From: an uncultured Bacteroidota bacterium
GTDB lineage: Bacteria; Bacteroidota; Bacteroidia; Flavobacteriales; Flavobacteriaceae
Length of the DNA stretch: 33,511 nt
NCBI GenBank assembly: GCA_902586905.1
Contig: CACIJH010000014.1
Coordinates: 1-33,511, forward strand
Direction of reading: 5' to 3'
In this document: piece after piece, positions 2 through 19,896 of the stretch
Layout of the letters: every line of letters starts with the position of its first letter
Numbering within the stretch: the stretch's first letter is position 1
Position numbers and translations under genes: made by a program
The notes under the pieces: model-generated
The model's input: the letters and a program-made list of their open reading frames with translations, nothing else
What the model was told of the DNA's origin: nothing
Databases searched by the model: none

Positions 2-2077
2 CTTAAAAGAGGCAAGGTTGGTCAATTTTTTAATAACAAATACAAACCTCCAGTTTCGAATAGTAATGCGCCAGATGAAGCCTATGTAGATGGTGCAATT
101 GCTGAAGAAGCAATTCGTTTGATAGATCGCTTGTCTTCAGAAAAAAATCCTTTTTTTCTTGCTGTTGGCTTCAAAAGACCTCACTTGCCATTTTCAGCTC
201 CCAAAAAATATTTTGACTTATACAACCCAAATAAAATTCCAATAGAACAATTTAGACAGCGTGCAGAAAATGTTGGAGAGCTTTCTTATCATAATTCTGG
301 TGAACTACAAAGCTATGTAGAGGATGGTAGAGAATACATTTTGGACTCAAATCAACAACTCAATCTCGATGAAGATTTTGAAAGAGAATTGATACATGGT
401 TATTATGCTTGTGTGACATTTATTGATTTTCAAATTGGAAAAATTATAAATAAACTAAACCAAAGTGGATTAATGAACAACACAATTATCGTAGTCTGGG
501 GAGATCATGGCTATCACTTTGGAGACCACCGGCTTTGGAATAAACATTCCAATTTTGAGCAGGCAACTCGCTCACCTCTTATCATCTATAACCCTAAAAC
601 AAAAACTGCTCAGAAAATTGTAACCCCAACAGAGTTTGTTGACGTTTTTCCAACATTAATCGACCTAGCGCAACTAAATCCTCAGCAACACTTGGATGGC
701 AATTCTCTTGCACCCTTGATGCTTGGACAACAACAAAAGGTAAAGGATTTTGCAGTAAGTCAATATCCTAGACGTAACAAAATGGGATATAGTTTTAGGA
801 CTGCAAATCATCGATATACGCTTTGGATTGACAAAAATAAAATAGGTTCTAAAATTGATGATGATGACATAAGACAAGAGGAGCTATTTGATTACAGTAA
901 AGACCCTTTAGAAACACAAAATCATATAGGTAAAAATGGATATAAAAGCATCTACAATGAACTGAAGCAACAGGCACTTAGATTTTTATCGCCAGCCCCA
1001 AAAAAAGAGACCAATTCTAATAACACAAACCCATCGGTTGGTATTAAGGACTTGATGTTGGAAGCTGGCTATGACAGCAATAAAGTATATGTAGGTGCCA
1101 CTTTAAATCACTCGCAACTCAATACAAAAGTATCTAATCTATTCCTCAAAGAATTTAATTATTCAACACCAGAGAACTGCGCAAAACAAGCAAGAATACA
1201 CCCAAAACCTGGCGTTTGGGACTGGAACCTCATTGATGATTACTTAGATTTTTCAGATAAGAACAATATAACTCTTCGCATTCATGGACCTATTAGTCCA
1301 CAAGCCTCTAGGTGGGCAAAGGCAGATAATCGCACAAAAGAAGAATTAGAAAATAATATGATAGAGTACTTTACTGCACTTTGTAGACGCATGAATAAAG
1401 AACCATCTGTCAAGTGGATGGATGTCGTCAACGAGACCATTACTCGTCAAGGAAATTGGTTTGAAGAAAAACCAGGTGTCACACAATGGGAAAATCCTTG
1501 GGAACAAATCGGCAGAGATGAAAATGACGTTCCACTATATATTACCAAGGCATTCGAAATATCCAACAAGTATGCACCAAATGTTAGTCAGGTGTTTAAT
1601 CAACATGGCGGTATGGAACCAAAAATGTGGGAAAAGGTTAAAGAAACCATATTGTATCTCAAATCTGAGGGATATCGTGTAGATGGTCTTGGGTGGCAAG
1701 CACATTTGAGAAGTGATGTTCCTTTGGCTTTAGACAAAAAACAGCTCGATTACTTTGCTTCTCTGATCGATTGGGCGCATCAAAATGATTTAGATTTTCA
1801 TGTTACCGAAATTGACTATAAAATTTGGGATAGCAATAATGACTTTAAAGCTCTTAATGATCAAGCAGATGCATATGCAAACATTCTTAATGTTTTGTTG
1901 TCAAAACGAGACAATGGTGTAGTTACTTTTAACACTTGGGGAATGGTGGATGGAAAAAAGGGGAAACATCACGATAAACATCGTTTTATTTTTGATAAAA
2001 ACAACAATCCTAAGCCAGCATATTTTTCGTTGAGAAACACAATTTTGAACCCTGACGCTGAACTAAAAATCAAATAA
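2..2077 (+). CDS. Sulfatase-GH10 xylanase fusion, 5' partial
   Basis: This is a two-domain secreted enzyme whose start lies left of the window. The frame is open from base 2, so the TTG at 119 is not the true start. Visible residues 1-325 are the C-terminal part of an S1-family sulfatase resembling iduronate-2-sulfatase (S1_7-like), with an RPHLPF segment and a DHG metal/substrate motif at 168-170; the formylglycine cysteine is outside the window. An Asn/Thr-rich linker (about 328-346) leads to a GH10 domain (about 346-692). That domain shows the acid/base Glu in DVVNE (E478) and the nucleophile in HVTEID (E603). The usual WHSQTP subsite segment is replaced by HGPISP. The GH3 gene starts three bases after the stop, so the two are probably co-transcribed. 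Desulfation and endo-cleavage on one chain suggest a sulfated xylan-like substrate (inference). The domain calls are firm; the substrate is not. Confidence 0.9.
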   Translation, partial: LKRGKVGQFFNNKYKPPVSNSNAPDEAYVDGAIAEEAIRLIDRLSSEKNPFFLAVGFKRPHLPFSAPKKYFDLYNPNKIPIEQFRQRAENVGELSYHNSGELQSYVEDGREYILDSNQQLNLDEDFERELIHGYYACVTFIDFQIGKIINKLNQSGLMNNTIIVVWGDHGYHFGDHRLWNKHSNFEQATRSPLIIYNPKTKTAQKIVTPTEFVDVFPTLIDLAQLNPQQHLDGNSLAPLMLGQQQKVKDFAVSQYPRRNKMGYSFRTANHRYTLWIDKNKIGSKIDDDDIRQEELFDYSKDPLETQNHIGKNGYKSIYNELKQQALRFLSPAPKKETNSNNTNPSVGIKDLMLEAGYDSNKVYVGATLNHSQLNTKVSNLFLKEFNYSTPENCAKQARIHPKPGVWDWNLIDDYLDFSDKNNITLRIHGPISPQASRWAKADNRTKEELENNMIEYFTALCRRMNKEPSVKWMDVVNETITRQGNWFEEKPGVTQWENPWEQIGRDENDVPLYITKAFEISNKYAPNVSQVFNQHGGMEPKMWEKVKETILYLKSEGYRVDGLGWQAHLRSDVPLALDKKQLDYFASLIDWAHQNDLDFHVTEIDYKIWDSNNDFKALNDQADAYANILNVLLSKRDNGVVTFNTWGMVDGKKGKHHDKHRFIFDKNNNPKPAYFSLRNTILNPDAELKIK

Positions 2078-2080
2078 GAT

Positions 2081-4423
2081 ATGAGATACCTGTTATTTGT
2101 TTTCTTTGCATCCTTTTCATTAATTGCTCAGAATAATCCCTTGTATTTGGATTCAAATGCAGATATAGAGGATCGCCTAAGCGATTTGATGGCACGAATG
2201 ACCCTAGAGGAAAAAGTAGGTCAAATGTGTCAATATGTTGGATTAGAGTATTTAAAAAAACAAAATAGAAACAAAAAAGCCGCTGGCGATGTATCTAAGC
2301 TTAATAAAGATGCTTTTGCGATGTATGGCTTGTCTGAAAGTGAAATAATACAAGAAATTATCGATGGAAAAATCGGCTCATTTCTTCATGTTCTTGATCC
2401 TGAGGAGGTAAACTATTTACAAGATTTTACATTACAGTCTAGGTTAAAGATTCCACTTATTATTGGAATTGATGCGATACACGGAAATGCCATGGTTCGT
2501 GGAACAACTGTTTATCCATCGCCAATATCCATTGCGGCAACGTTTAATAATGATTTTGCTTATGACGTGGCCAAACAAAGTGCAAGGGAGATGAGAGCTA
2601 CAGGATCACAATGGACATTTATGCCAAATGTTGATGTTGCACGTGATCCTAGATGGGGTCGTGTTGGTGAAACTTTTGGAGAAGATCCATTTATGGTAGG
2701 TGAAATGGGTAAAGCCATGATCATGGGATTTCAGGGAGAGGACTTTGGCAAACCAAATAATGTAATTGCTTGTGCAAAACATATGATTGCTGGGTCTGAA
2801 CCACTCAATGGGCTCAATATCTCTCCAATGGATGTCTCTGAACGTTCATTATATGAAATTCATTTACCACCTTATAAAAAGGCAATAGATGCAGGGGTAT
2901 ATTCAATAATGGCAGCTCACAATGAGCTCAACGGAATACCAAGCCATATGCACAAAGGCCTTATGACAGACTTACTCAGAAATGAATGGGGTTTTGATGG
3001 ATTTTATGTAAGTGACTGGTATGATATCAAACGAATATGGTCGTATCATAAAGTTGCAAGAAACTACAAAGAAGCATCACTGTTTTCTGTAGAAGCAGGG
3101 ATGGATATGAATATGCATGGCCCTGAATTTTATGATTTTATTGTTGCTTTAGTAAAAGAAAATAAGTTGTCAATCGATAGAGTTAATGAGGCGTGCTCAA
3201 AGATATTACATGCAAAATTTCAACTTGGCTTATTTGAAAATCGCCTTGTTGATCACTCCAAAATAGATAAAAATGTTTTTATAAAAAGTCATTTAGATAA
3301 AGCTGAGGAAATAGCTGACAATTCGATTACACTCCTAAAAAACAATAACTCACTCCCTATCAATAATTCAAATGCAAAACAGATATTGGTTACTGGGCCT
3401 AATGCACATAATCATACCACTTTGGGAGATTGGCATTTTGAGCAGCCAGAGGAAAACGTTGTGACTATTTTTGAGGGCATACAGCAAGTAGGAGAAAATT
3501 ATAACCATAAAGTAGATTATTACGATTCTGGTATCAAGATTAGAAACATTCAAGATTCGAAAATCAAAGCTACTGCTGAAATGTCAACAAATTATGACCA
3601 CGTATTTGTAGTTGTTGGCGACAATTCTTTAAGATATACATGGGAGGGTGGTAAAAGCTTTCAAAAGACAGCAGGAGAAAACAAAGCGAGAAGTTTTTTA
3701 GGTCTTCCTGGAAAACAGCTCGATTTAGTTAAATCCATTTATGAAAAAAACAAAAACCTCACTGTCGTTTATGTAAGTGGAAAACCGATCAGTGAGCCAT
3801 GGATAGAAGATAATATTAAGTCTATCATTCATGCTTGGGAGCCAGGAAGCATGGGAGGAAAATCTATGGGTAAAATCGTTTTTGGAGAGATAAATCCAAG
3901 CGGGAAAATGCCCATGACTACTGCAAGATCTGTAGGTCAACTTACGATGGTGTATAATCACAAACCCACGAATTATATTCACAAATATGCTTTTGAGAAA
4001 ACAAAACCACTCTATCGGTTTGGTTTTGGATTGAGTTATACCACTTTCTCTATTTCAAAACCAACCTTGTCAACATCCAAATGGGATGGCAAAGGGAAGG
4101 TGCTTGTTGAGGTAGATGTTAAAAACACTGGCGAAAGAGAGGGCATGGAAACTGTTCAGCTTTACATCCGAGACTTATTTAGCAGTGTTACTCGACCAGT
4201 ACTGGAACTCAAAGGATACAAAAAAGTAAATGTTGCTCCAGGCGAAACCAAACGCGTATCCTTTAGCCTATCACTAGATGATTTTGCGTTTTACGATAGA
4301 GAAATGAAGTATAAAGCTGAAGAAGGTGACTTCAATATTTTGGTAGGTAACGCTGCAAATTTGGCTAAACTCAAAAAAACTACAATCCAATTAACTAAAA
4401 ATATTTATATAATTGAAAACTAA
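2081..4423 (+). CDS. GH3 beta-glycosidase (BglX-like), secreted
   Basis: A 780-residue family 3 glycoside hydrolase, a full-length three-domain form. It has a signal peptide (residues 1-17, ending SLIAQ) and the N-terminal TIM barrel with GIDAIHG and KHM segments. The nucleophile Asp is D312 in VSDW. The C-terminal alpha/beta domain carries AWEPGSMGGKSMG and NPSGKMPMT, and a fibronectin-III-like tail follows (about 660-770). Such enzymes release terminal beta-linked glucose or xylose in the periplasm. Beside two GH10 domains and an acetyl esterase, beta-xylosidase activity is the likelier role (inference). It follows the sulfatase-GH10 gene by 3 bp and overlaps the next sulfatase by 11 bp. 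Family assignment is very secure; the sugar specificity cannot be read from the sequence. Confidence 0.93.
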   Translation: MRYLLFVFFASFSLIAQNNPLYLDSNADIEDRLSDLMARMTLEEKVGQMCQYVGLEYLKKQNRNKKAAGDVSKLNKDAFAMYGLSESEIIQEIIDGKIGSFLHVLDPEEVNYLQDFTLQSRLKIPLIIGIDAIHGNAMVRGTTVYPSPISIAATFNNDFAYDVAKQSAREMRATGSQWTFMPNVDVARDPRWGRVGETFGEDPFMVGEMGKAMIMGFQGEDFGKPNNVIACAKHMIAGSEPLNGLNISPMDVSERSLYEIHLPPYKKAIDAGVYSIMAAHNELNGIPSHMHKGLMTDLLRNEWGFDGFYVSDWYDIKRIWSYHKVARNYKEASLFSVEAGMDMNMHGPEFYDFIVALVKENKLSIDRVNEACSKILHAKFQLGLFENRLVDHSKIDKNVFIKSHLDKAEEIADNSITLLKNNNSLPINNSNAKQILVTGPNAHNHTTLGDWHFEQPEENVVTIFEGIQQVGENYNHKVDYYDSGIKIRNIQDSKIKATAEMSTNYDHVFVVVGDNSLRYTWEGGKSFQKTAGENKARSFLGLPGKQLDLVKSIYEKNKNLTVVYVSGKPISEPWIEDNIKSIIHAWEPGSMGGKSMGKIVFGEINPSGKMPMTTARSVGQLTMVYNHKPTNYIHKYAFEKTKPLYRFGFGLSYTTFSISKPTLSTSKWDGKGKVLVEVDVKNTGEREGMETVQLYIRDLFSSVTRPVLELKGYKKVNVAPGETKRVSFSLSLDDFAFYDREMKYKAEEGDFNILVGNAANLAKLKKTTIQLTKNIYIIEN

Positions 4424-5837
4424 TATCTATTTATCGATAATCATTAGCTTCTTTTGCTTTTCAACAATAGGGCAAGAATCAAATCAAAAAAACGTTCTGC
4501 TGATCATTGTAGATGACCTACGACCTGCTCTGCCAACATATGGGTCTACTCAGGTTGTAGCACCCAATATTACTTCGTTTGCAAAAGATGCAGTACAATT
4601 TAATAATGCTTTTGTGAACATTCCCACTTGTGGTGCCTCAAGGGCAAGTATCCTTACAGGCATTAGACCTACAAGAGAATATTATAAGAAGTATTACACT
4701 TCTATTGATGAGGATATGCCACAAGCCATAACCATTTCGGAATTGTTACAAGCCAAGGGCTACACTACGATTAGTAATGGAAAGGTTTCGCATAATAAAT
4801 CAGATAAAGCTTCGACTTGGGATGATTTATGGCGACCTAGATCAACAACCCCAAAAGATTATCTTTTGGAGGAAAATATCGAATCTAGCAAGCTTCCACA
4901 TAAAAATAATCATATGCCTTATGAAAAGGCCGATGTTGAAGACCTAGCATACAAGGACGGGAAAATCGCTGCAAAGACAATCAGAGATTTAAAGAAATTG
5001 AAAGCGAATAAAGAATCATTTTTTCTAGTCGCAGGCTTTTTAAAGCCCCATCTCCCATTTAATGCTCCTGCAAAATATTGGGAAATGTATGACAGAAACA
5101 AGATTACTCCCCCAAAAAACAACAAATTTCCAACAACTGCATATGAGGGCGCAGGGAATTGGTACGAGCTCGTCAAATACAAAGGAGTCCAAGAAGGTTA
5201 TTCAGATAATCCAGGATTGAATGCAAAGACATTTACCATGGATGCAGAAATGACTACCAATTTAATTCATGGATATTATGCATGTGTGAGTTTCATCGAT
5301 CAACAAATCGGAAATGTATTGCAGGCTCTAGACGATCTTGATCTTTCCGACAATACTGTCGTAATCATCACTAGTGATCATGGTTTTAGTTTGTCTGACC
5401 ACAATCGATGGTCCAAGCATAATTTGTTCAAGGTAGAAAATCATGTGCCTTTATTTGTAAGAGTTCCAGGAGTTTCAAATTCAGGAAAGTCTGATAGTTT
5501 TGTTGAACTCATCGATTTGTACCCTACTATTTGTGATTTGTTGGGATTAGAAAAACCAGATCAGTTGGAAGGAAGGTCATTGGTAGAAAACATAAAAAAC
5601 CCAAATTTAATATCTAGAACCAATGCATTTTCGCGCTACACAAATGGCGATATGTATATCTCAGATAATTATGCCTATTCTGAATGGAAGTATTCTGAAG
5701 ATGGCAACATTGTTGGTAGAATGCTATATGACATGAAAAACGACCCCTTTCAGATGGAGAACTTGTCGCATCTTGCAAAATATGAGACACTTATGGACAG
5801 CCTAAGTAATAACCTTAAATCAAAGAAAATTTACTAA
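4413..5837 (+). CDS. S1 sulfatase, iduronate-2-sulfatase-like (CGASR)
   Basis: A 474-residue secreted sulfatase. The signal peptide spans residues 1-20 (ending STIGQ). The IIVDDLRP metal-binding segment follows. The formylglycine motif is CGASR with Cys73, which a formylglycine-generating enzyme must oxidise before the protein is active. SDHGFSLSDH supplies later metal/substrate ligands, and KPHLPF is typical of the S1_7 group. The start is taken as the TTG at 4413, inside the end of the GH3 gene: no in-frame ATG precedes the signal peptide, and translation from TTG gives a clean one. It probably removes a sulfate ester from the glycan attacked by the neighbouring GH10 enzymes. It resembles the sulfatase half of the fusion at 2-2077, so these may be paralogues with different positional specificity (inference). 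Confidence 0.93.
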   Translation: MKTNIYLSIIISFFCFSTIGQESNQKNVLLIIVDDLRPALPTYGSTQVVAPNITSFAKDAVQFNNAFVNIPTCGASRASILTGIRPTREYYKKYYTSIDEDMPQAITISELLQAKGYTTISNGKVSHNKSDKASTWDDLWRPRSTTPKDYLLEENIESSKLPHKNNHMPYEKADVEDLAYKDGKIAAKTIRDLKKLKANKESFFLVAGFLKPHLPFNAPAKYWEMYDRNKITPPKNNKFPTTAYEGAGNWYELVKYKGVQEGYSDNPGLNAKTFTMDAEMTTNLIHGYYACVSFIDQQIGNVLQALDDLDLSDNTVVIITSDHGFSLSDHNRWSKHNLFKVENHVPLFVRVPGVSNSGKSDSFVELIDLYPTICDLLGLEKPDQLEGRSLVENIKNPNLISRTNAFSRYTNGDMYISDNYAYSEWKYSEDGNIVGRMLYDMKNDPFQMENLSHLAKYETLMDSLSNNLKSKKIY

Positions 5838-5838
5838 A

Positions 5839-7440
5839 ATGAAAAATTATGTAGCTATCTTATTATTGGTTTGGAGTTCGTTTGTTTTAGCCCAGGACAA
5901 AAGGCCAAATATTTTATTTATCATGTCTGATGATCATGCCTATCAAGCGATCAGTGCATACAATGACAAGCTTGTTCAGACCCCCAATATCGATAAGATT
6001 GCTCAGGAGGGGATTTTATTTTCAAACGCAAGTGTGACCAACTCCATTTGTGCTCCCTCTAGAGCAACGATTTTAACTGGAAAGTTTAGTCATATCAATG
6101 GAAAAGTTGATAATATTTTCCCATTTGATACGACCCAGATGACTTTCCCCCAATTGTTTCAGAAAGCAGGATACCAAACGGCAATGTTTGGTAAACTTCA
6201 CTTTGGAAATAACCCAAAGGGGTTTGACGACTTCTTAATTTTGCCTGGACAAGGTCACTATATCAATCCCAAATTTATAGGGAAGGAAAAAGACACAATC
6301 ATTACTGGCTATGTAACAGATGTTATCACAGACCTGACTATCAATTGGTTTGAAGAAAAGAGAGATGCATCCAAGCCATTTTTGATGATGTATCTTCACA
6401 AAGCACCCCACAGGGCTTGGTGGCCAAGTCCTGAAAAATTTGAGGAATTTTACCAAAAAGAATTCCCATTGCCTGAAACGCTTTTTGATGACTATTCAAA
6501 CAGATCTTCAGCTGCTTCAAGTGCCGAAATGAATATTTTTGAACACATGCATTTGATGCAAGACAATAAGGTCTATCCAAAGACAATACAGCAGATGGGG
6601 GATTTGGTCAAAGACATCACTTATACTGGAGAGAGTAGAAAGATAAAAAAAGCAGGAGCAGGCGAATTTTTAAGACCTTTTAGACGAGCAAACAAACAAC
6701 AAGAAGAGCAATACAGAAAAACGTTAGATAAAATCAGTGCTGATTTTAAAAACAAATGGCCAAATATGTCTGATAAAGAAAAAACCATTTGGAAATATCA
6801 GCGATACATGCAAGATTATCTCGCAACGATTTCGTCGGTAGATGATAATGTTGGTAGGGTATTAGATTATCTGAAAGAAAATGACTTGGAAGATAATACC
6901 ATTGTTGTTTACACTTCAGATCAAGGGTTTTATTTGGGTGAACATGGTTGGTTTGATAAAAGGTTTATATATGACGAATCCTTTAAAACCCCATTGCTTA
7001 TTCGCTGGCCCAATAAAATAAGACCAGGTATAACAAATGATGAAATGGTGCAAAACCTCGACTTTGCACAAACATTTTTGGATGCAGCAAGTATAAAGGC
7101 ACCCAACGATATGCAGGGTAAGAGTTTACTTCCTTTACTTTTTGAGGATCAAAAAAAATGGACACGAGATGCTGTGTACTACCACTACTATGAATTCCCA
7201 TCTGTTCACATGGTAAAGCGTCATTATGGGATCGTTTCAAAAGAATATAAACTAGTTCATTATTATTATGATATTGATGAGTGGGAGTTTTTGGATAGAA
7301 AAGCAGATCCGAATGAAATGACAAACCTTTACGATAATCCAAAATATCAAAGCATCATTCAAACGATGAAAAAGAAGCTGAAAAAACTTCGTAAAAAATA
7401 TAAAGACTCGGATGAATTATCTCAAAAATATTTATACTAA
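5839..7440 (+). CDS. S1 sulfatase, GlcNAc-6-sulfatase-like (CAPSR)
   Basis: A 533-residue secreted sulfatase with a signal peptide (residues 1-19, ending FVLAQ). It has IMSDDHAYQ metal ligands and the formylglycine motif CAPSR with Cys71, followed by the TGK continuation of the signature. An MYLHKAPHR segment and a later SDQGFYLGEHGWFDKR segment recall the S1_11 group, which includes N-acetylglucosamine-6-O-sulfatases; this subfamily placement is by eye. The later signature has DQG where most sulfatases have DHG, a normal variant of this group. A charged insertion at about residues 225-300 lies between the core blocks. It starts one base after the previous stop. In this locus it more likely targets a sulfated algal sugar than a glycosaminoglycan (inference). 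Confidence 0.92.
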   Translation: MKNYVAILLLVWSSFVLAQDKRPNILFIMSDDHAYQAISAYNDKLVQTPNIDKIAQEGILFSNASVTNSICAPSRATILTGKFSHINGKVDNIFPFDTTQMTFPQLFQKAGYQTAMFGKLHFGNNPKGFDDFLILPGQGHYINPKFIGKEKDTIITGYVTDVITDLTINWFEEKRDASKPFLMMYLHKAPHRAWWPSPEKFEEFYQKEFPLPETLFDDYSNRSSAASSAEMNIFEHMHLMQDNKVYPKTIQQMGDLVKDITYTGESRKIKKAGAGEFLRPFRRANKQQEEQYRKTLDKISADFKNKWPNMSDKEKTIWKYQRYMQDYLATISSVDDNVGRVLDYLKENDLEDNTIVVYTSDQGFYLGEHGWFDKRFIYDESFKTPLLIRWPNKIRPGITNDEMVQNLDFAQTFLDAASIKAPNDMQGKSLLPLLFEDQKKWTRDAVYYHYYEFPSVHMVKRHYGIVSKEYKLVHYYYDIDEWEFLDRKADPNEMTNLYDNPKYQSIIQTMKKKLKKLRKKYKDSDELSQKYLY

Positions 7441-8344
7441 AAAGCACTCTCTTTTTATACTTTTATTTTTGTCATTTGCTGGCATTTCGTTGGGTCAGAA
7501 TACACAAAAAATAAAAGTTTTTTTACTAGCAGGACAATCAAATATGGATGGTCGAGGCGATGCTTCAAAGCTGTCCGAAGCGGAAATGAAATTGTTAACC
7601 AATGCAAGTCAAAAAATACATTTTGTTTATAAGGGGACTGTGGGAGAAGGAAATGCCATTCGATATGATGGTGCGTTAGACTTCACAAATCCATGGAATT
7701 TTGTGAAACAAAAATTCAGAATTGAAAAATGCTTTGGTCCTGAGCTTTTTTTTGGGGTTGAGCTTGTGAAAAATTACCCCAAACAGGATTATCTTTTTAT
7801 CAAAAGATCTCAAGGCGGAACATCTTTATATGGCGCTTGGAATCCTAACTGGTCTTTTGAAAAGGCAAGTTTTTTTAACGAACAAGACAAACCAAAACTT
7901 TATCAAGATTTTATAGATCTTGTAGATGCTGAGCTTGCTGAATTACATCCCGACGGTCATGAAATTGTCGGTATGCTATGGGTGCAAGGTGAGACTGATA
8001 GTAATACAAGTAATGGATCAGTGGCTGCAGATACTTACCATCTTAATTTAGAAAGTTTAATCAATTCAGTGAGAGATCATTATGATATTCCAGATCTTCC
8101 TTTTTTGATAGTAGGCGTGGGTAGTAAAAAAGTTCAAAAAGCAATGGTTCAAGTGAGTAATAAATTAACTAATGTTAGCTTTATTGAGAGAAGTCAAGAC
8201 GTAAATAGGAGCAATTATACCCCGATCTATACACACAAATGGAATGGAAAACCTGTAGGGCATTACAATTATGAAGGGATAAAAAAAATTGGGCAGCTCT
8301 TTTTTGAAAGTTATCAAACATCTTACGCAAATTATTTACAATGA
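7412..8344 (+). CDS. CE6/SASA-type carbohydrate acetyl esterase
   Basis: A 310-residue secreted esterase of the SGNH-like SASA domain group, which includes CE6 acetylxylan esterases and sialate O-acetylesterases. The signal peptide covers residues 1-29 (ending GISLGQ). The nucleophile Ser43 lies in GQSNM, the conserved WVQGETD block follows, and the probable catalytic His is H284 in GHYNYEG. It would remove O-acetyl groups from the backbone so that endo-enzymes can bind. Next to GH10 and GH3 genes, acetylxylan is the natural substrate guess. The ATG at 7412 overlaps the upstream sulfatase by 29 bp but is the only start giving a complete signal peptide. The stop overlaps the next start as ATGA. 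The esterase class is secure; CE6 is a probable placement. Confidence 0.87.
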   Translation: MNYLKNIYTKKHSLFILLFLSFAGISLGQNTQKIKVFLLAGQSNMDGRGDASKLSEAEMKLLTNASQKIHFVYKGTVGEGNAIRYDGALDFTNPWNFVKQKFRIEKCFGPELFFGVELVKNYPKQDYLFIKRSQGGTSLYGAWNPNWSFEKASFFNEQDKPKLYQDFIDLVDAELAELHPDGHEIVGMLWVQGETDSNTSNGSVAADTYHLNLESLINSVRDHYDIPDLPFLIVGVGSKKVQKAMVQVSNKLTNVSFIERSQDVNRSNYTPIYTHKWNGKPVGHYNYEGIKKIGQLFFESYQTSYANYLQ

Positions 8345-9744
8345 TGAAGTTTCTAAATTCTGTATTTTTTCTTTTGAGTGTTTTATTTGTTTCAGCTCAA
8401 GAAAACAAGCCCAACATTATATGGCTAGTATGTGAAGACCAATCAGTACAATTTTTTCCGATGTATGGTGACAAAACAGTTTCATTGCCACACCTTGAAA
8501 AACTAGCAGAAGACAGTGTTCTTTTTGAAAATATGCATGCCACAACCCCAGTGTGTTCTCCCGCCCGAAGTGCTATTATTACAGGGATGTATCCTACGAC
8601 CTTGGGGACTCACAATATGCGTACTTACAATGAAGGAAGAAAAACCAATCAACCTCAACTTGGAATACCCAGCTACTCACCTAAATTCCCAGACTACATC
8701 AAACCCTTCACTGTGTACTTGAGAGAAGAGGGATATTATTGCACCAATAGCAACAAGCAAGATTACAATTTTGAAATTGCGAGCAATGCTTGGGACCAAA
8801 GTTGTCGTTATTGTCATGGAGATGAGAAAGAAAATATTCATTGGAGAAAAAGAGATGGAGACCAGCCTTTTTTCGCTGTTTTCAACTTCCAAATCACACA
8901 TGAATCACAGATTTGGAAGCAACAACGACAAGAAGTATTTCTAGACCCAAATGATATTGAATTTATTCCACCTTATTTCCCCGATGACCCTGTAATTCGG
9001 CAAGACATGGCAACTAATTATTCAAACCTTGTTCGTATGGATAAGGAAGTAGGTAAAATTATTTCAGAGCTAAAAGAGCAAGGATTATACGATGACGCCT
9101 ATATATTTTTTTACTCTGATCATGGCGGACCTTTTCCAAGACATAAAAGAGCTATTTATCAAACAGGCACAAAGGTTCCTTTCTTTATAAAATTCCCAAA
9201 ATCACTTCATGCAGGAGAAAAAGATGATAGGCTACTGAGCTTTGTTGATTTGGCACCCTCTGTTTTGCAAATGGCTGGAATCGAAATCCCTGAGCACATG
9301 CAGGGAAAACCAATCAACGAATTTTATCATAAAAGCTTGAGAGATTACTTAATCACAGCATCGGATAGATTTGATGGGCAGTATGATAGAATTCGAGCAA
9401 TACAAGATAAGAGGTTTAAGCTAATTAGAAGTTTTTATCCAGATATGTCACATCATCTTGATGTTCAGTACAGAAAAAATATGCCAATGATGCAAAAACT
9501 ACTGAAGCTTCATGTAGATGGACAATTAAATCAAGACCAACAAAAGTGGTTTGGTCTGAAAGAGGAATATGAATTTTATGACTTGCAAAAGGACCCCTAT
9601 GAGATGAAAAATCAAATTCAGAATCCCGCTTACCAAGATCATATTCAATTACTCAAAGATGAATTGGAAAAATGGATGCTAAACACAAATGATTTGGGAG
9701 CAGTGCCTGAACAAGTGTTGATAAAACAAGCAACTTCTCAGTAA
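8341..9744 (+). CDS. S1 sulfatase, arylsulfatase/sulfamidase-like (CSPAR)
   Basis: A 467-residue secreted sulfatase. The signal peptide spans residues 1-20 (ending FVSAQ), and WLVCEDQS is the first metal-binding block. The formylglycine motif is CSPAR (Cys72), followed by TGMYPTTLGTHNMR. SDHGGPFPRHKRA forms the later active-site block. The CSPAR plus THNMR layout resembles the S1_8 group, related to heparan sulfamidase-type enzymes (inference by eye). Two close cysteines in a CRYCHGD segment (about residues 155-160) may form a disulfide or bind metal. The ATG at 8341 overlaps the esterase stop as ATGA, implying translational coupling; the ATG at 8344 is an equally plausible start one codon later. 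It is one of five different sulfatases in the same plus-strand run. Confidence 0.92.
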   Translation: MMKFLNSVFFLLSVLFVSAQENKPNIIWLVCEDQSVQFFPMYGDKTVSLPHLEKLAEDSVLFENMHATTPVCSPARSAIITGMYPTTLGTHNMRTYNEGRKTNQPQLGIPSYSPKFPDYIKPFTVYLREEGYYCTNSNKQDYNFEIASNAWDQSCRYCHGDEKENIHWRKRDGDQPFFAVFNFQITHESQIWKQQRQEVFLDPNDIEFIPPYFPDDPVIRQDMATNYSNLVRMDKEVGKIISELKEQGLYDDAYIFFYSDHGGPFPRHKRAIYQTGTKVPFFIKFPKSLHAGEKDDRLLSFVDLAPSVLQMAGIEIPEHMQGKPINEFYHKSLRDYLITASDRFDGQYDRIRAIQDKRFKLIRSFYPDMSHHLDVQYRKNMPMMQKLLKLHVDGQLNQDQQKWFGLKEEYEFYDLQKDPYEMKNQIQNPAYQDHIQLLKDELEKWMLNTNDLGAVPEQVLIKQATSQ

Positions 9745-9780: not shown

Positions 9781-11271
9781 ATGACAATTAGCTTTGAACT
9801 TTTCGGGATTCCAATACATTTGACCAGAAAAATTAGGGCTGTTTGGACGATACTACTGATGCTTGGTTCTACTTTAGTGTTTTCACAAAAAGAGATGAAC
9901 AACTCTTCTCCAAATTTCATTGTTATTTTAGTTGATGATCAAGGTTGGAGTGGGACTTCAGTTCAAATGAAAAAAGGTGATGCATCTTCAATGAGTGATT
10001 ATCATTACACGCCAAACTTAGAAAAACTAGCATCAAAAGGTATGCGTTTTTCCCAAGCCTATTCAACCTCTCCTGTGTGTGCACCTTCTCGATATAGTTT
10101 ACAATTTGGAAAAAGTGCAGCTAGACTCAATATGATAAGAGTCCAAATGAGCACTGATCACATTGATCACACAACTGAAATGACCATCCCTAAGATTTTA
10201 AAAAAAGTAAACCCAAAATACGTCACTGCTCATTTTGGTAAATGGGGGATGGGTATCAGCAATTCAAAAATGGGGATTAATTTCGGGGTTCATCCGTCAG
10301 TACTTGGATATGATTACTCTGATGGTAAAACAGCAAATAGGGACGGAGGTTTTCAACCACCCGAGTGGAAATTCTCTACATCGGAAGATCCAAAAAAAAT
10401 CTACTCTCTAACACAGCGATCTCTTGCTTTTATTGAGCAGCAAGCAAAATCAAAAAATCCTTTTTACTTGCAACTGTCTCATTATGCTGTCCACTCAAAT
10501 ATTCAGTCCACAAAACGATCTTTGGAGAAATATGAGAAAAAAGATCAAGGGAAAATTCATAAGAATGCATATTTTGCTGCACTTACAGAAGACCTGGATG
10601 ATTCTGTTGGAATTCTACTCAACAAACTGCATGAGCTTGGTATCACAAATAATACCTATGTTATATACTGTTCGGATAATGGTGCAGTCCCAACACTACC
10701 ACCAAGAAGAAAATACAAACAAAGTTACAACTACCCTCTTAGCAGAGGCAAATGGGACGCAACAGAGGGTGGGATAAGAATCCCTTTTATTGTTTCAGGA
10801 CCAAATATCAAACCCAATACATTTTCTGATATTCCTGTTTCATTAACTGATATTCTACCCACAATTGCAGATTTATCTGGATACAGTCTTCGAGGACAAA
10901 TGAAAACAATTGATGGTGGTAGCATGAAAAAAGTATTATTTAACTCTGGCAATGGGAAAGTTAAAAGACAGGATAATGGATTTTATTTTCATGTTCCATA
11001 CAGAAATTACATCGCATTTGGGAGGCCTCACTCATCCATTATAATAGGCCCTTATAAGCTCATTAAGTTTTATGATAATGGTGAGCTAAACTTATTTGAC
11101 CTTTCTAGTGATATTGGAGAGCAAAATAATCTTGCTGAAGAGTTTCCAAAAAAAGCAAAAAAACTAGAATCCAAAATGGAGGACTACTTTAAGAAGCACA
11201 AAACGGTGAAGTGGGGAAAAGGAATAGATTGGAAATTTAAATCTATCCAAGAAATCAATTCGTTTTACTAA
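9781..11271 (+). CDS. S1 sulfatase, arylsulfatase A-like (CAPSR)
   Basis: A 496-residue secreted sulfatase. It starts after a 36-bp gap and has a long N-region before the hydrophobic signal core (about residues 20-35, ending VFSQ), so a start further in at Met27 is possible. VDDQGWSG is the first metal block. The formylglycine motif is CAPSR with Cys100, and HFGKWGMG provides the conserved Lys region. SDNGA replaces the usual DHG, as in arylsulfatase A-like subfamilies. It is the last gene of the plus-strand run, and its 3' end overlaps the convergent sulfatase by 17 bp. The sulfatase assignment is firm; I could not place the subfamily. The substrate is presumably another sulfated position on the same glycan (inference). 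Confidence 0.92.
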   Translation: MTISFELFGIPIHLTRKIRAVWTILLMLGSTLVFSQKEMNNSSPNFIVILVDDQGWSGTSVQMKKGDASSMSDYHYTPNLEKLASKGMRFSQAYSTSPVCAPSRYSLQFGKSAARLNMIRVQMSTDHIDHTTEMTIPKILKKVNPKYVTAHFGKWGMGISNSKMGINFGVHPSVLGYDYSDGKTANRDGGFQPPEWKFSTSEDPKKIYSLTQRSLAFIEQQAKSKNPFYLQLSHYAVHSNIQSTKRSLEKYEKKDQGKIHKNAYFAALTEDLDDSVGILLNKLHELGITNNTYVIYCSDNGAVPTLPPRRKYKQSYNYPLSRGKWDATEGGIRIPFIVSGPNIKPNTFSDIPVSLTDILPTIADLSGYSLRGQMKTIDGGSMKKVLFNSGNGKVKRQDNGFYFHVPYRNYIAFGRPHSSIIIGPYKLIKFYDNGELNLFDLSSDIGEQNNLAEEFPKKAKKLESKMEDYFKKHKTVKWGKGIDWKFKSIQEINSFY

Positions 11272-12808
11272 ATTTTCTTTTCATAAGATTAAATCTAGGT
11301 TCAAACCAAGGTTGAACATTATCGAGTTGCCTTCCAAGGCCTTCTGGATATTCTTGTGCATCACTAACTCTTTTTTCAAGAACTTTTTTTAGCGAATCGA
11401 GAACCTTAGTGTATTGCTGATCATTTACCAAATTTATTAGTTCGTCACGATCGTATTCGTGATCATATAGTTCGTACTTAAAAAGGTTATTATGACTCCA
11501 GCGATTTAATCGGTATCTTTTTGTTTTTATAGAATATCCTTGTGCCATTCCTTCAGGAGTTCTGACTAAAAGCTCTGTCAGAGCGCTATTTCTGATCGGA
11601 GTTTTAGACCCTTTGAAATAGGGATGTAAACTTTTGCCACGTACAAAATCTGGTGTTTCCATTTGAAGCAATTCCATAATTGTCGGATACAAATCAACAA
11701 GTTCAACAGGTTCATTTATGGGACCTAAACCACTGGATATTCCAGGGCCTGAAAAAATTAAGGGAACTCTTGTTGCATGTTCGAATAGTGTTTGCTTTTG
11801 CCAATGTCCATGCTCTCCAAGATGATAGCCATGATCAGATGTAAAGACAACTATTGTTTTTTTATCCAAACCTGTTTTTTTGAGTTTATCCAACACCCGA
11901 CCGATTTGAGCATCCACAAAGCTAACAGTTGCATAATATGCTTGCTTGATTTCCTGTGCCAATTCAGGATCTAGGCCAACTTGTTCTTTTTTTCTACGTA
12001 CTGAAATTGCAGCTGGCTCTGGGATGGTTTTTAAATATTGACTTGAACTTTGTGGAACAGAAAAATCTTTATTTTTCTGTAATTCATAATATTTTTCAGG
12101 GGCAACAAAAGGTACGTGGGGTCGGTAAAAACCGAATGCCAAAAAGAAATTCTCACCACTCTTGGCAAATTCGTCTAGAAAGGCAATAGTGTTGGTTGCT
12201 CCAATTCCATCTGTTTGTTCTTCATCTTTACCAGAAGCCTTATGCCAGCTTAAAACACCTCCATTAAATCTTGGTTTGAGAAATGTTACTTTATGCTCTT
12301 CAATCTTATCTCTCCCATAAGGGTTTACTGTTCTATCCCAAGTATAATGATCATCATAACTGGCCGTCCCTATATCTCTTGGGTTATGGTAGTGATAAAC
12401 TTTACCAACTCTTATTGAATGATAATTCTCCATCCTGAATTTTTGACCCAAAGTAATCACATCAGGAATCGTTTGGCGCACATGAAGTCTGAGTTCTTTT
12501 GACTTTGTTTGATCTGGATATAGCCCTGTCATAAAAGAAACTCTAGAAGGGCCGCAAAGTGGATATTGAACGTGAGCATTTGTAAATAGCACGCCTTCAT
12601 TAGCAAGTTTGTCAATGTTGGGGGTATAAGCGAGGGAATCGCCATAGGCACCAATAGCACAATTTAAATCATCGGCTATGATGAGTAAAACATTAAATTT
12701 TTCAGAATTTTGAGCTAGATTAAATGTAGAGATTAAGAAAAATAATAATCCCAATAAAATAAACTTAAATCTATTTAAATAATTCCAAAAATTTTTAAAA
12801 TAGATCAC
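11255..12808 (-). CDS. S1 sulfatase, iduronate-2-sulfatase-like (CGPSR)
   Basis: A 517-residue secreted sulfatase on the opposite strand. The signal/anchor segment covers residues 14-33 (ending NLAQ). IIADDLNC is the first metal block, and CGPSR with Cys85 is the formylglycine motif. RPHVPF and SDHGYHLGEHGHWQK are typical of the S1_7 (iduronate-2-sulfatase-like) group. The start is GTG at 12808, overlapping the stop of the upstream GH128-like gene as GTGA, so the two are translationally coupled. Its 3' end overlaps the plus-strand sulfatase by 17 bp. It resembles the sulfatase half of the fusion and the 4413 sulfatase, giving three S1_7-like copies in one locus. Enzyme class is secure; substrate position is unknown. 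Confidence 0.92.
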   Translation of the reverse strand: MIYFKNFWNYLNRFKFILLGLLFFLISTFNLAQNSEKFNVLLIIADDLNCAIGAYGDSLAYTPNIDKLANEGVLFTNAHVQYPLCGPSRVSFMTGLYPDQTKSKELRLHVRQTIPDVITLGQKFRMENYHSIRVGKVYHYHNPRDIGTASYDDHYTWDRTVNPYGRDKIEEHKVTFLKPRFNGGVLSWHKASGKDEEQTDGIGATNTIAFLDEFAKSGENFFLAFGFYRPHVPFVAPEKYYELQKNKDFSVPQSSSQYLKTIPEPAAISVRRKKEQVGLDPELAQEIKQAYYATVSFVDAQIGRVLDKLKKTGLDKKTIVVFTSDHGYHLGEHGHWQKQTLFEHATRVPLIFSGPGISSGLGPINEPVELVDLYPTIMELLQMETPDFVRGKSLHPYFKGSKTPIRNSALTELLVRTPEGMAQGYSIKTKRYRLNRWSHNNLFKYELYDHEYDRDELINLVNDQQYTKVLDSLKKVLEKRVSDAQEYPEGLGRQLDNVQPWFEPRFNLMKRKFSKTN

Positions 12809-13872
12809 TTCTTAACAATTAATTTGTAAAATGATTTGTTTGATTCATTGATTAATTCGGTATAATAGACACCTCTGTTTAAATCAGATATATCTAATTG
12901 AGTTTTAATATTTTTTCTTACTAGAACTTCCCCATTTAAATTAAAAATACTTACTGTAAAGCTAGAATTTTCTGAATCAATATAAATTAAATTTTTTGAG
13001 GGGTTAGGATATATTGTTATCACGTCATTTTTCTTATTCTTACTTGAAAGTGCATTATTTAGATTGTGACTCGCATAATACTCACCCAAAGTTGTTAGCT
13101 GATTATTTTCATCAATGATATCAGCAGTTTGTAGCATTGGGTATTTATCATTGTTGGCATTTGGATCGAACCAAGAATAACGTTTAACATAATCCAATTC
13201 ATGTAATTCATTTAATACATTTTCCATAAATGTTAGTACATAACTTTCTGAGTATATGTTTGGGTTATTTATTGTCGCATTAGTGTCTCTTACTGCAAAT
13301 TCAGTTATCCAAATAGGCTTTCCATAGGTTTGATAAACCTCTTCTACAAGTTCAATGAATTTGGTTGGATTATTTTTATGATAAACATGAATAGCAACGA
13401 AATCCACTCTCAGGTTTTGACTACTTGCTGCTTGCATAAAATCTCTCATCCACTCATTAAGTGGAGCTGAGGTTACAGGGCTAGATATGGGAACATTTAA
13501 TGTTTCAATTAACGGCCAAAGATCTACAACCTCATTTACTGACATATTCGATTGACTTTCTAGGTCAGGTTCATTAAACATCAGCACATTTTGGATCTTT
13601 CCTAAGCTCGCCAAGTTATTTAAATAATCTATTTTGTCTTGAGTAGCATTGTTTCTTCCCCAAATCATAGGTACAAACTCAATTTCATCTGGGTAGTTGT
13701 TTCTATACTCCCAATGCCATGAATAATGCCAATGAGGTTTTAGCTTTTCAAAACGCTCTTGCCAACTATTCTCATATCCAAGGTTAAAGGCTACCCCTTT
13801 TTTTAAATCTAAATTTTCTTGAGCAAAGAGATTAAAACAAACCAATATAAACGAAACCCTTATTTTTTTCAT
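12805..13872 (-). CDS. GH128-like glycosidase with T9SS sorting domain
   Basis: A 355-residue secreted protein with a signal peptide (residues 1-18, ending LFAQ). Its catalytic domain (about 22-265) resembles the PF11790/GH128 clan A fold. The likely acid/base is E101 in FNEPD and the likely nucleophile E191 in WITEFA; both tips are intact. Residues about 285-355 form a type A T9SS C-terminal sorting domain (YPNPS, FNLNGE, LNRGVYY, KLIVKK), so the enzyme should be exported to the cell surface. Known GH128 members cut beta-1,3-glucan, so it may attack laminarin-like or mixed-linkage material, or have drifted to the locus substrate (inference). It is the first gene of a two-gene minus-strand unit with the sulfatase. 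Clan assignment is good; activity is uncertain. Confidence 0.8.
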   Translation of the reverse strand: MKKIRVSFILVCFNLFAQENLDLKKGVAFNLGYENSWQERFEKLKPHWHYSWHWEYRNNYPDEIEFVPMIWGRNNATQDKIDYLNNLASLGKIQNVLMFNEPDLESQSNMSVNEVVDLWPLIETLNVPISSPVTSAPLNEWMRDFMQAASSQNLRVDFVAIHVYHKNNPTKFIELVEEVYQTYGKPIWITEFAVRDTNATINNPNIYSESYVLTFMENVLNELHELDYVKRYSWFDPNANNDKYPMLQTADIIDENNQLTTLGEYYASHNLNNALSSKNKKNDVITIYPNPSKNLIYIDSENSSFTVSIFNLNGEVLVRKNIKTQLDISDLNRGVYYTELINESNKSFYKLIVKK

Positions 13873-15886: not shown

Positions 15887-15895
15887 TTTTTGATT

Positions 15896-17619: not shown

Positions 17620-17668
17620 AGCTGTATGATTTAAAGAATGAATCACATTTCAATGTTTAAATAAGTTG

Positions 17669-18760
17669 ATGAATATTATTTTTTCCCTACACCTGTACAT
17701 GAGAAGTTTTTTTCTTTTTATAATTTTTATAGGTTTTGAAGCTGTAGCACAACAAACTGATGTACCTTCTCTACATCATAATGCTAATTTTCATATTGGC
17801 ACCTCAGTTCGTTTTGTCCCTTTTTCTAAAGACACTTTGGCTCAAAAAATACAGCAGCACCATTTTAATAGCTATACTGCAGGAAGCGACATGAAAATGT
17901 ATCAAATAACTCCTAAACCTGGCGTTTATCATTGGTCTCGTGTTGATAGCATCGTGGATTATGCAGTTAAAAACAATCAGCGTTTGTTTGGTCATAATTT
18001 AATCTGGCATAGTTCCACTCCCAAATGGGTCGAAAAAAAGGCTAAAAAAAATCCTGAGTGGTTGGATGGATTCATGAAAGAATACATCTCAACATATGTT
18101 GGGAGATATAAAGGAATTGTTGATGGATGGGATGTAGTTAACGAAGGTCTAAACACAAAAGGTCAGGGCTTAAGAACCGAAAGTATTTGGTTCAAATCAT
18201 TAGGAAAAAAGTATATAGAAAAGGCCTTTATATATGCCCATGCAGCAGACCCTGATGCTATTTTATTTTACAATGATTTCAATATTGAGAGAGACTCTCT
18301 CAAATTAGATTCCATGCTTGAAATGGTTTATGATTTTTTGGATAGAGGGGTGCCAATTTCTGGCATCGGTTTCCAAATGCATATCAGAATGGATATTCCA
18401 AATGAAATCATTGCAAGGTCTTTAAAAAAAGCTGCTGATACAGGTCTTCAAATTCATTTGTCTGAGGTTGATATTATTTTCAATACTCATGATGATTCTA
18501 AAGGAGGTGGAATTCAACTTTATGATCATTTGACTAAAGAAATGAAATTTGCTCAAGCACAGAAATATGCCGACTTGGTAAATATGTATCAAGATATTGT
18601 GCCAAAAGAACAGCAATATGGAATAACATTTTGGGGGTTTAATGATCGTGATACTTGGATTCGAAGGTTTTTTAAAATGAATGATTGGCCGACGATTTAC
18701 GACGATAATCTTTTACCAAAACCTGCTTTCTTTGGGTTTTTAAATGCCCTTAAAATATGA
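17669..18760 (+). CDS. GH10 endo-beta-1,4-xylanase, secreted
   Basis: A single-domain GH10 enzyme of 363 residues. The acid/base Glu is E159 in DVVNEG and the nucleophile E266 in HLSEVD, spaced 107 residues apart as expected for GH10. The substrate-binding segment GHNLIWHSSTPKW is near canonical, with Ser for the usual Gln. FQMH and the late WGFNDRDTW segment complete the barrel signatures. It should cut the backbone of xylan-like chains. The start is set at the ATG at 17669, which has an A-rich upstream sequence; the ATG at 17699 would give a shorter, equally good signal peptide ending AVAQQ. No T9SS tail or lipobox is visible, so it is probably periplasmic. Its stop overlaps an upstream ATG of the FGE frame. 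Confidence 0.94.
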   Translation: MNIIFSLHLYMRSFFLFIIFIGFEAVAQQTDVPSLHHNANFHIGTSVRFVPFSKDTLAQKIQQHHFNSYTAGSDMKMYQITPKPGVYHWSRVDSIVDYAVKNNQRLFGHNLIWHSSTPKWVEKKAKKNPEWLDGFMKEYISTYVGRYKGIVDGWDVVNEGLNTKGQGLRTESIWFKSLGKKYIEKAFIYAHAADPDAILFYNDFNIERDSLKLDSMLEMVYDFLDRGVPISGIGFQMHIRMDIPNEIIARSLKKAADTGLQIHLSEVDIIFNTHDDSKGGGIQLYDHLTKEMKFAQAQKYADLVNMYQDIVPKEQQYGITFWGFNDRDTWIRRFFKMNDWPTIYDDNLLPKPAFFGFLNALKI

Positions 18761-18807
18761 TAATTAATTTTACAACCATCACTCAAATTTTTATAATTTT
18801 GAATCTT

Positions 18808-19896
18808 ATGAAAAGTCATCACCTTCTTTTATTTTTTATAATAATGGGCTGCCAACAAACCCCCAAACAGCCCCAAACTGCCGGTCATAGTTGTACGCCT
18901 ACGCAAAGTCGGTTTTCTTCTTCAGTGAGTACAACCTCACAAGCGAAATCAAACGCCAACAAAGCGGGTATGGTTTTAATCCCAGGCGGGACTTTTTCTA
19001 TGGGTGGAGATGATGACCAGGCATGGCGAGATGAGTATCCAAAACATGAGGTAATGGTTGACTCCTTTTGGATGGATGTCCATGAGGTGACCAATGCGCA
19101 ATTTGCTGCTTTTGTTGAAGCAACGGGTTATGTTACCACTGCTGAAAATGCTGTGGATTGGGAAGAAATCAAAAAAGAATTACCCCCTGGAACCCCAAAA
19201 CCTGATGACAGCCAGTTGGCACCAGCATCACTGGTTTTTGTACCTACAGATCGTCCAGTTTCGTTGCGGGATGTAAGCCAGTGGTGGCAATGGCGACAAG
19301 GCGCCAACTGGAGACAACCTGAGGGCCCAGGCAGTAGTATCGTAGGCAAAGAAAATCATCCTGTGGTGCATGTGAGTTGGTTTGATGCAGTTGCCTATTG
19401 CGATTGGGCAGGCAAACGATTGCCAACAGAGGCTGAATGGGAGTATGCCAGTAGAGGAGGACTCAAAGACGCAGTCTATGCTTGGGGCAATGAAGACTTA
19501 CGCTCTGGAAAATCCAAAGCCAATACGTGGGAAGGAGCTTTTCCTTACAAAAACGATAAGAGTGATGGCTTTTATTTTACAGCACCTGTGCAAAGCTATC
19601 AGGCAAACAACTATGGTTTATATGATATTGCAGGTAATGTATGGGAATGGTGCGCTGACTTATACCACGAAGACTACTACAAAACTTTAGCTGGCAAAAT
19701 ATCCCACAACCCACAAGGACCTGAGACAAGCTATGACTCCAATGAGCCTTATGCATTAAAGCGTGTTAGTAGAGGGGGAAGTTTTTTATGTCACGACAGC
19801 TATTGCAGCGGATACCGAAACAGTATGCGTATGAAAACCACGCCAGACACAGGAAGTATGCATACTGGGTTTAGAGCAGTGGTTTCAGTACAATAA
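18808..19896 (+). CDS. Formylglycine-generating enzyme, lipoprotein
   Basis: A 362-residue FGE-sulfatase domain protein (sulfatase-modifying factor type). Aerobic FGE oxidises the CxPxR cysteine of sulfatases to formylglycine, using oxygen and a copper-binding cysteine pair. Both cysteines are present: C328 and C333 in the GGSFLC/SYC block. IPGGTFSMGG, HPVVHVSWFDAVAYC, RLPTEAEWEYA and GNVWEWC mark the family fold. The start at 18808 gives a short lipoprotein signal (FIIMGC, Cys15); the in-frame ATG at 18757 overlaps the GH10 stop but would add a second hydrophobic stretch. Membrane anchoring in the periplasm would let it act on sulfatases after export. It is the only maturase in a window with six sulfatases. 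Many family members lack activity; the cysteine pair argues this one is active. Confidence 0.9.
   Translation: MKSHHLLLFFIIMGCQQTPKQPQTAGHSCTPTQSRFSSSVSTTSQAKSNANKAGMVLIPGGTFSMGGDDDQAWRDEYPKHEVMVDSFWMDVHEVTNAQFAAFVEATGYVTTAENAVDWEEIKKELPPGTPKPDDSQLAPASLVFVPTDRPVSLRDVSQWWQWRQGANWRQPEGPGSSIVGKENHPVVHVSWFDAVAYCDWAGKRLPTEAEWEYASRGGLKDAVYAWGNEDLRSGKSKANTWEGAFPYKNDKSDGFYFTAPVQSYQANNYGLYDIAGNVWEWCADLYHEDYYKTLAGKISHNPQGPETSYDSNEPYALKRVSRGGSFLCHDSYCSGYRNSMRMKTTPDTGSMHTGFRAVVSVQ

Follow-up and report, generated by a model that had tools for sequence, protein, structure and literature searches.

Proteins annotated as a "sulfatase domain-containing GH10" were described in 2019 in predicted sulfated-xylan PULs of North Sea Formosa, Aurantivirga and Polaribacter MAGs (PMC6794258), and a sulfated beta-xylan locus was predicted in Formosa sp. 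Hel3_A1_48, in which related SusC/D-like proteins were expressed (PMC6298971); here and below, statements on published papers refer to the passages of each that were available. In those passages of PMC6794258, the PUL pattern (sulfatase-GH10, GH3 and two further sulfatases) was drawn from annotation, without a residue-level or biochemical description. No characterised sulfatase-GH10 protein was found in openly licensed PMC papers, and the fusion was absent from the passages of PMC4807772, which concerns a double sulfatase, and from those of PMC9122927, PMC9549685 and PMC5066984.

Three characterised enzymes provide the nearest points of comparison. The ulvan sulfatase-rhamnosidase P36 (S1_25-GH78, 6HR5) is a precedent for a sulfatase and a glycoside hydrolase joined in one marine Bacteroidota enzyme, although both its sulfatase subfamily and its glycoside hydrolase family are others; the sulfatase-GH78 fusion characterised for ulvan in PMC8360166 was equated with 6HR5/P36 by combining the structure match with a second review. 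Among solved structures, P18_S1_7 (6HHM), an ulvan sulfatase of Formosa agariphila, comes nearest to the sulfatase domain studied here, but is a 475-residue chain without a GH10 domain and acts on ulvan fragments. Human iduronate-2-sulfatase (IDS), the enzyme of PMC5472762 and an S1_7 member according to PMC5066984, likewise has no glycoside hydrolase domain.

We analysed a stretch of 33,511 nucleotides (the window) that begins at base 1 of a contig, C14, from an uncultured member of the Flavobacteriaceae, a different genome from those of PMC6794258. The fusion at its 5' end matches the 2019 pattern in both its domain pair and its neighbours, the order being fusion, GH3 and two sulfatases, S_a and S_b; related loci found here include records named Formosa, Polaribacter and SCGC AAA160-P02. 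The architecture is therefore not new, although a preliminary description of this DNA knew of no characterised enzyme that joins the two domains; in-frame relatives and the 2019 description likewise led us to reject a fusion unique to the window.

A fused sulfatase-GH10 gene and its neighbourhood

Open reading frame and Pfam domain order agreed on a single unbroken polypeptide in which an S1 sulfatase core is followed by a GH10 domain that retains the two catalytic glutamates, and on this point the preliminary description was correct in coordinates as well as content (Table 1). The frame is open at its 5' end because the window starts with the contig; the source assembly comprises 1.35 Mb and is 69.8% complete. 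PF00884 (Sulfatase) was matched at residues 10-224, which correspond to profile positions 129-300 of 301, so that the N-terminus is missing; the truncated window copy scored 101.7 bits and the full-length relative L048 159.2 bits, against a cut-off of 25. SGSH_C (PF16347) occupied residues 174-325. PF00331 (GH10; cut-off 22.1 bits) was matched over profile positions 6-309 of 311 with a score of 139 bits, with the acid/base glutamate at residue 478 (DVVNE, 1433-1435) and the nucleophile at residue 603 (HVTE, 1808-1810). The profile match and the two glutamates assign the domain to family GH10, as judged from sequence, whereas "endoxylanase" is a predicted role. The linker, reported as Asn/Thr-rich, was indeed so in the window copy, but its composition differed among 27 aligned relatives. 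In the longer members L072, L074, L076 and L078, CBM_4_9 modules separate the sulfatase from the GH10, and these four cluster with Reichenbachiellaceae and Flammeovirgaceae rows in a domain tree.

Table 1. Features of the window around the fused gene.
Feature	Position	Strand	Remarks
Fused sulfatase-GH10 gene	2..2077	+	691 aa + stop; 5' end cut by contig start
S1 (formylglycine) sulfatase domain, C-terminal part	29..976	+	Pfam; includes SGSH_C, lacks CxPxR segment; closest PDB entry 6HHM
Linker	992..1069	+	Asn/Thr-rich in window copy; about residues 331-356
GH10 catalytic domain	1070..2035	+	PF00331, residues 357-678
GH3 glycosidase	2081..4423	+	Predicted beta-xylosidase/glucosidase type; below NCBIfam cut-offs
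S1 sulfatase S_a	4413..5837	+	Motif CGASR
S1 sulfatase S_b	5839..7440	+	Motif CAPSR
SASA-type carbohydrate esterase	7412..8344	+	
S1 sulfatase S_c	8341..9744	+	Motif CSPAR
S1 sulfatase S_d	9781..11271	+	Motif CAPSR
S1 sulfatase S_e	11255..12808	-	Motif CGPSR
Glyco_hydro_cc glycosidase	12805..13872	-	PF11790; type IX secretion tail
DUF1800 and DUF1501 genes, side by side	14078-17548		Type IX tail on DUF1501
Second GH10, canonical	17666..18760	+	292 bits; HNLIWHS
FGE-like formylglycine-generating enzyme	18757..19896	+	CHDSYC cysteine pair

The segment with the CxPxR motif lies beyond the contig start, and of the upstream motif and signal peptide, which the preliminary description had left to be confirmed, the motif and a putative signal peptide were instead seen in relatives. 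CxPxR with its cysteine was intact in all 47 fused rows that reach it (identical sequences L019 and L059 both counted), and the N-terminus of full-length relatives appeared hydrophobic by eye. In the same-genus genomes represented by L048, L033 and L040, the upstream extension of the frame takes in CSPSR and a hydrophobic stretch, and the absence of a methionine before the motif makes GTG the probable start codon. Of the 9 sulfatase matches in the source assembly, none supplied the missing N-terminal piece of the window copy: 8 begin at profile position 1 or 2, and only the window frame begins inside the profile. Same-genus genomes encoded the protein at 90-92% identity in three cases and at 74% in a fourth; a full-length match was absent from 8 of 13 such genomes, a count in which the window's own genome is included and most of the 8 are incomplete.

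Downstream of the fusion lie five more sulfatases, a GH3, a second GH10, a SASA-type esterase and an FGE, a gene set that fits a sulfated xylan-type chain, as had been proposed. The predicted FGE aligned along its length to solved FGEs, with its CHDSYC opposite their CHESYC, and by eye has a lipoprotein-like N-terminus (IIMGC), which suggests that sulfatase maturation may occur outside the cytoplasm. Neither SusC nor SusD was detected among the 26 window proteins scanned; the contig begins inside the fusion. The close relative L040 encodes, upstream of the fusion, SusD and a type IX-tailed GH5, and L072 has a TonB-dependent (SusC-like) barrel together with a SusD. A survey of neighbours comprised 54 fused rows, of which three were repeats (L014 = L048, L017 = L041, L019 = L059), giving 51 distinct loci. 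A GH3 directly followed the fusion in at least 31 of these and an FGE lay near it in at least 11, both counts being lower bounds since many surveyed loci are incomplete.

Two further features of the neighbourhood were observed. The motif of S_a has alanine where CxPxR has proline. Relatives of the DUF1800 and DUF1501 genes also occur near the fusion, or near a split pair, in L037, L082, L084 and L087.

Active sites of the two domains

By sequence and by fold, 6HHM (P18_S1_7) was the nearest solved structure to the sulfatase domain, followed by IDS. A Foldseek search with the predicted model of L048 (m4e79aa02b1e7; mean pLDDT 83.9, pTM 0.60) matched 6HHM with an E value of 3.2e-40 and a TM-score of 0.89 on the target; all 50 fold matches listed were sulfatases or related phosphonate hydrolases, so the GH10 fold is assigned from sequence. 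Placement in S1_7 is indirect, through the membership of these two nearest structures. As a yardstick of our own for S1_7, rather than an official criterion, we used the ten active-site residues of IDS given in PMC5472762 (D45, D46, C84, R88, K135, H138, H229, D334, H335 and K347), of which His138 is considered likely to be important in catalysis. The fused family keeps nine of the ten and differs at His138, which aligns without gaps with Asp129 of L048; P18_S1_7 also has histidine where the fused family has this aspartate. Aspartate was present in all 47 fused rows in which the position could be read (5 of 52 do not cover it), and the other nine positions were kept in 45 of the 47, the remaining two showing an X or an uncovered end. 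We therefore refer to the domain as S1_7-like.

The same substitution was found outside the fusion. Among 156 rows of standalone homologues, the His138 position held histidine in 42, aspartate in 36, a gap in 49 and another residue in 29, and 27 standalone sulfatases combined the aspartate with an otherwise full pattern. The exchange thus marks a wider set of sulfatases and not the fusion itself. By our inference, the aspartate could take over the work of His138.

The GH10 domain also departs from the canonical GH10 of the same window. In canonical GH10s, a Trp-His after the active-site histidine is usually kept and is regarded as functional. At this segment the window copy reads HGPISPQ (1283-1303) in place of H-x-x-x-WHS, and HGP-SPQ or a close variant followed the active-site histidine in 61 of 61 rows of the GH10 subclade, representing 59 different sequences; the H-x-x-x-W-H pattern of canonical GH10 endo-beta-1,4-xylanases is thus absent from the subclade, whereas the second GH10 of the window retains HNLIWHS. 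The PDB xylanases 8hkg and 5ay7 place Trp or Trp-His opposite the gap in the fused GH10, and the lost tryptophan presumably lines a subsite. DVVNE and the second glutamate were each present in 62 of 62 aligned rows (the 61 subclade rows plus the second GH10 of the window), Gln-His was kept across the subclade, and a later tryptophan was kept in all but one gapped row. Of the pairing of an S1 sulfatase with a GH10 endoxylanase on a sulfated chain, as originally proposed, both domains and most catalytic residues hold; "endoxylanase" stands as a prediction, with the Trp-His missing. Neither the Asp-for-His change nor the altered GH10 segment is described in the passages of the papers cited here.

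Distribution and history of the fusion

A scan of genome contigs, with patterns that were derived from the window protein and hence favour close relatives, yielded 78 related loci. Both domains lay in one frame in 50 of these, on 49 contigs, with six frames cut by a contig end; the same architecture thus occurs elsewhere, including in the isolates Lutibacter agarilyticus (L054), Lutibacter sp. HS1-25 (L108), Reichenbachiella faecimaris (L073) and Marinoscillum sp. MHG1-6 (L072). Sulfatase and GH10 were neighbouring separate genes in 6 loci (L081, L083, L085, L087, L088 and L090), and in the remaining 22 no GH10 of the fused kind was matched within the stretch examined. Two different fusion copies (L060 and L066) were observed about 14 kb apart on CAJIYW010000004.1, within one MAG. 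In Lutibacter agarilyticus (L054:9401-14290), two standalone GH10s that belong to the same subclade follow the fusion in tandem.

In a search of relatives, 7 of 99 genomes, including that of the window, gave a full-length match. Surveys of the family and of the class, each an even draw from a larger group, detected the GH10 subclade in 23 of 397 genomes (25 matches) and in 2 of 395 (one being the window's own), respectively. Nine of the 25 family-survey matches lay in frames of 691-887 aa, with G601 and G774 judged to be fused by length alone, and 16 lay in frames of 359-473 aa; the fusion as an obligatory state was therefore rejected. These 16 standalone-length GH10s were viewed with about 6 kb on each side (13-14 kb), giving 15 loci (L135-L149), since L137 holds two. 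At least three sulfatase frames, usually with a GH3, were present in 10 of the 15 (L139-L141 and L143-L149); L142 has two sulfatases, L135, L136 and L138 each show a single match that is partial or weak, and L137 has no sulfatase match in the 13-14 kb examined. One standalone GH10 (L148) is broken by a stop. As standalone GH10s mostly reside in sulfatase clusters, the fusion is optional; the predicted pairing of the two activities is wider than the fusion, but is not universal.

Sulfatase and GH10 identities were correlated across 351 pairs of 27 fused proteins (r = 0.84, without a control). Trees of the two domains were constructed as quick trees without bootstraps, rooted at the midpoint, leaving out L013-L017 (repeat copies), GH10s with fewer than 250 aligned residues and sulfatases below 240 residues or 265 bits. 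In both trees the adjacent-gene forms L081, L083, L085, L087 and L088 clustered with fused rows; in L090 the GH10 is paired with a sulfatase from another branch. L063 and L066 grouped with Polaribacter-type rows in the GH10 tree and apart from them in the sulfatase tree, which indicates that the domains were not always inherited together. This discordance hints at domain exchange.

In a GH10 tree that included more standalone GH10s and was rooted with very distant GH10 outgroups, likewise quick and without bootstraps (L067, L138, which is the same gene as L020, and L148 left out), fused rows occupied several early branches with standalone rows nested inside. At the fewest, six changes between the fused and standalone states were required, four of them forced by starred branches; the outgroup branch was 3.2 changes per column long, making the root weak. 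The simplest reading, with this weak root, suggests an old fusion, repeated later splits and some exchange.

Proposed function and alternatives

The fusion is real and conserved, with intact catalytic glutamates and operon-like neighbours, and its architecture had already been described. We consider it likely that the protein is exported, most probably to the periplasm, and acts as a two-domain enzyme in a sulfated-xylan(-like) utilisation locus, where it would desulfate and cut the same chain. The location is suggested by the signal peptides recognised by eye in relatives and by the lack of a match to a type IX tail on the window copy and on six fused relatives scanned. In the proposed mechanism, the S1_7-like domain would be matured by formylglycine formation, through the FGE encoded in the same cluster, and would remove sulfate, probably O-2, from xylose; the same imported oligosaccharide would have its beta-xylosidic chain cut by the GH10 domain and would be finished to monosaccharides by the neighbouring sulfatases, esterase and GH3. 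Fusion would keep two steps together on one substrate and fix their ratio, but relatives encode the two parts separately. Substrate and sulfate position are inferred, and desulfation before backbone cleavage, as the preliminary description suggested, is one possible order of the steps, since homology does not show which comes first: P18_S1_7 is listed as an endo-acting xylose 2-sulfatase in PMC9096561, and the S1_7 enzyme is described as exo-acting in PMC8360166.

The alternative that survives best, although we regard it as unlikely, is that the locus targets another xylose-containing sulfated heteropolysaccharide, such as a glucurono-xylo-rhamnan or a sulfated chain of mixed linkage, with the GH10 domain acting on a bond that differs from that of a plain xylan backbone. 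With the WHS segment missing from all 61 subclade rows and kept in the canonical GH10 of the window, the glycan of the fused GH10 may not be plain beta-1,4-xylan; the nearest solved sulfatase acts on ulvan, and the GH5 with a type IX tail upstream in L040 and the PF11790 glycosidase in the window are also consistent with another target. However, nearly all of the 60 listed PDB matches to the GH10 domain carry the name xylanase, the catalytic glutamates, Gln-His and (one gapped row excepted) the later tryptophan are kept, a canonical GH10 is encoded in the same window, and the 26 window proteins scanned gave no match to an ulvan lyase or rhamnosidase family.

A considerably less probable explanation is that the sulfatase domain, with its catalysis altered or lost, acts chiefly as a module that binds sulfated chains for the GH10. 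The loss of His138 in every fused row read is what this explanation draws on; yet the remaining nine active-site positions are nearly always kept, CxPxR is intact wherever it is reached, the same aspartate occurs in the 27 standalone sulfatases with an otherwise full pattern, and 11 of the 51 distinct fused loci have an FGE gene close to the fusion. A sequencing or assembly artefact joining two neighbouring genes, which the preliminary description had itself raised, might be suspected from the position of the window copy at a contig end of an incomplete assembly and from the 6 loci with separate neighbouring genes, but is refuted for the family by the recurrence of the in-frame join on 49 contigs (50 of the 78 loci, isolates included), and has a negligible probability for the window copy, whose join is shared by same-genus genomes, three of them with 90-92% identity and one with 74%.

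Returning to the two-domain enzyme of a sulfated-xylan(-like) locus, a bolder form of it can be put forward tentatively, as a possibility to which we give well below even weight: the protein may represent a distinct enzyme type, both of whose active sites have been re-tuned together, and so be a true sulfated-xylan hydrolase and not a xylanase awaiting desulfation. A sulfatase with aspartate for the proton-transferring histidine would then be joined to a GH10 that has shed the subsite Trp-His and might thereby admit a sulfated xylose beside the cut bond; this conjunction, too, is doubtful.

Marine Bacteroidota are predicted to use sulfated xylan as a substrate during blooms (PMC6794258, PMC6298971), and no characterised enzyme tying desulfation to backbone cleavage was found in openly licensed PMC papers. 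A widely conserved polypeptide with both domains offers a direct handle, as its products would reveal the sulfate position and the bond cut. The Asp-for-His change provides a natural test of sulfatase chemistry and, together with the altered GH10 segment, makes the true substrate of the family a testable question.
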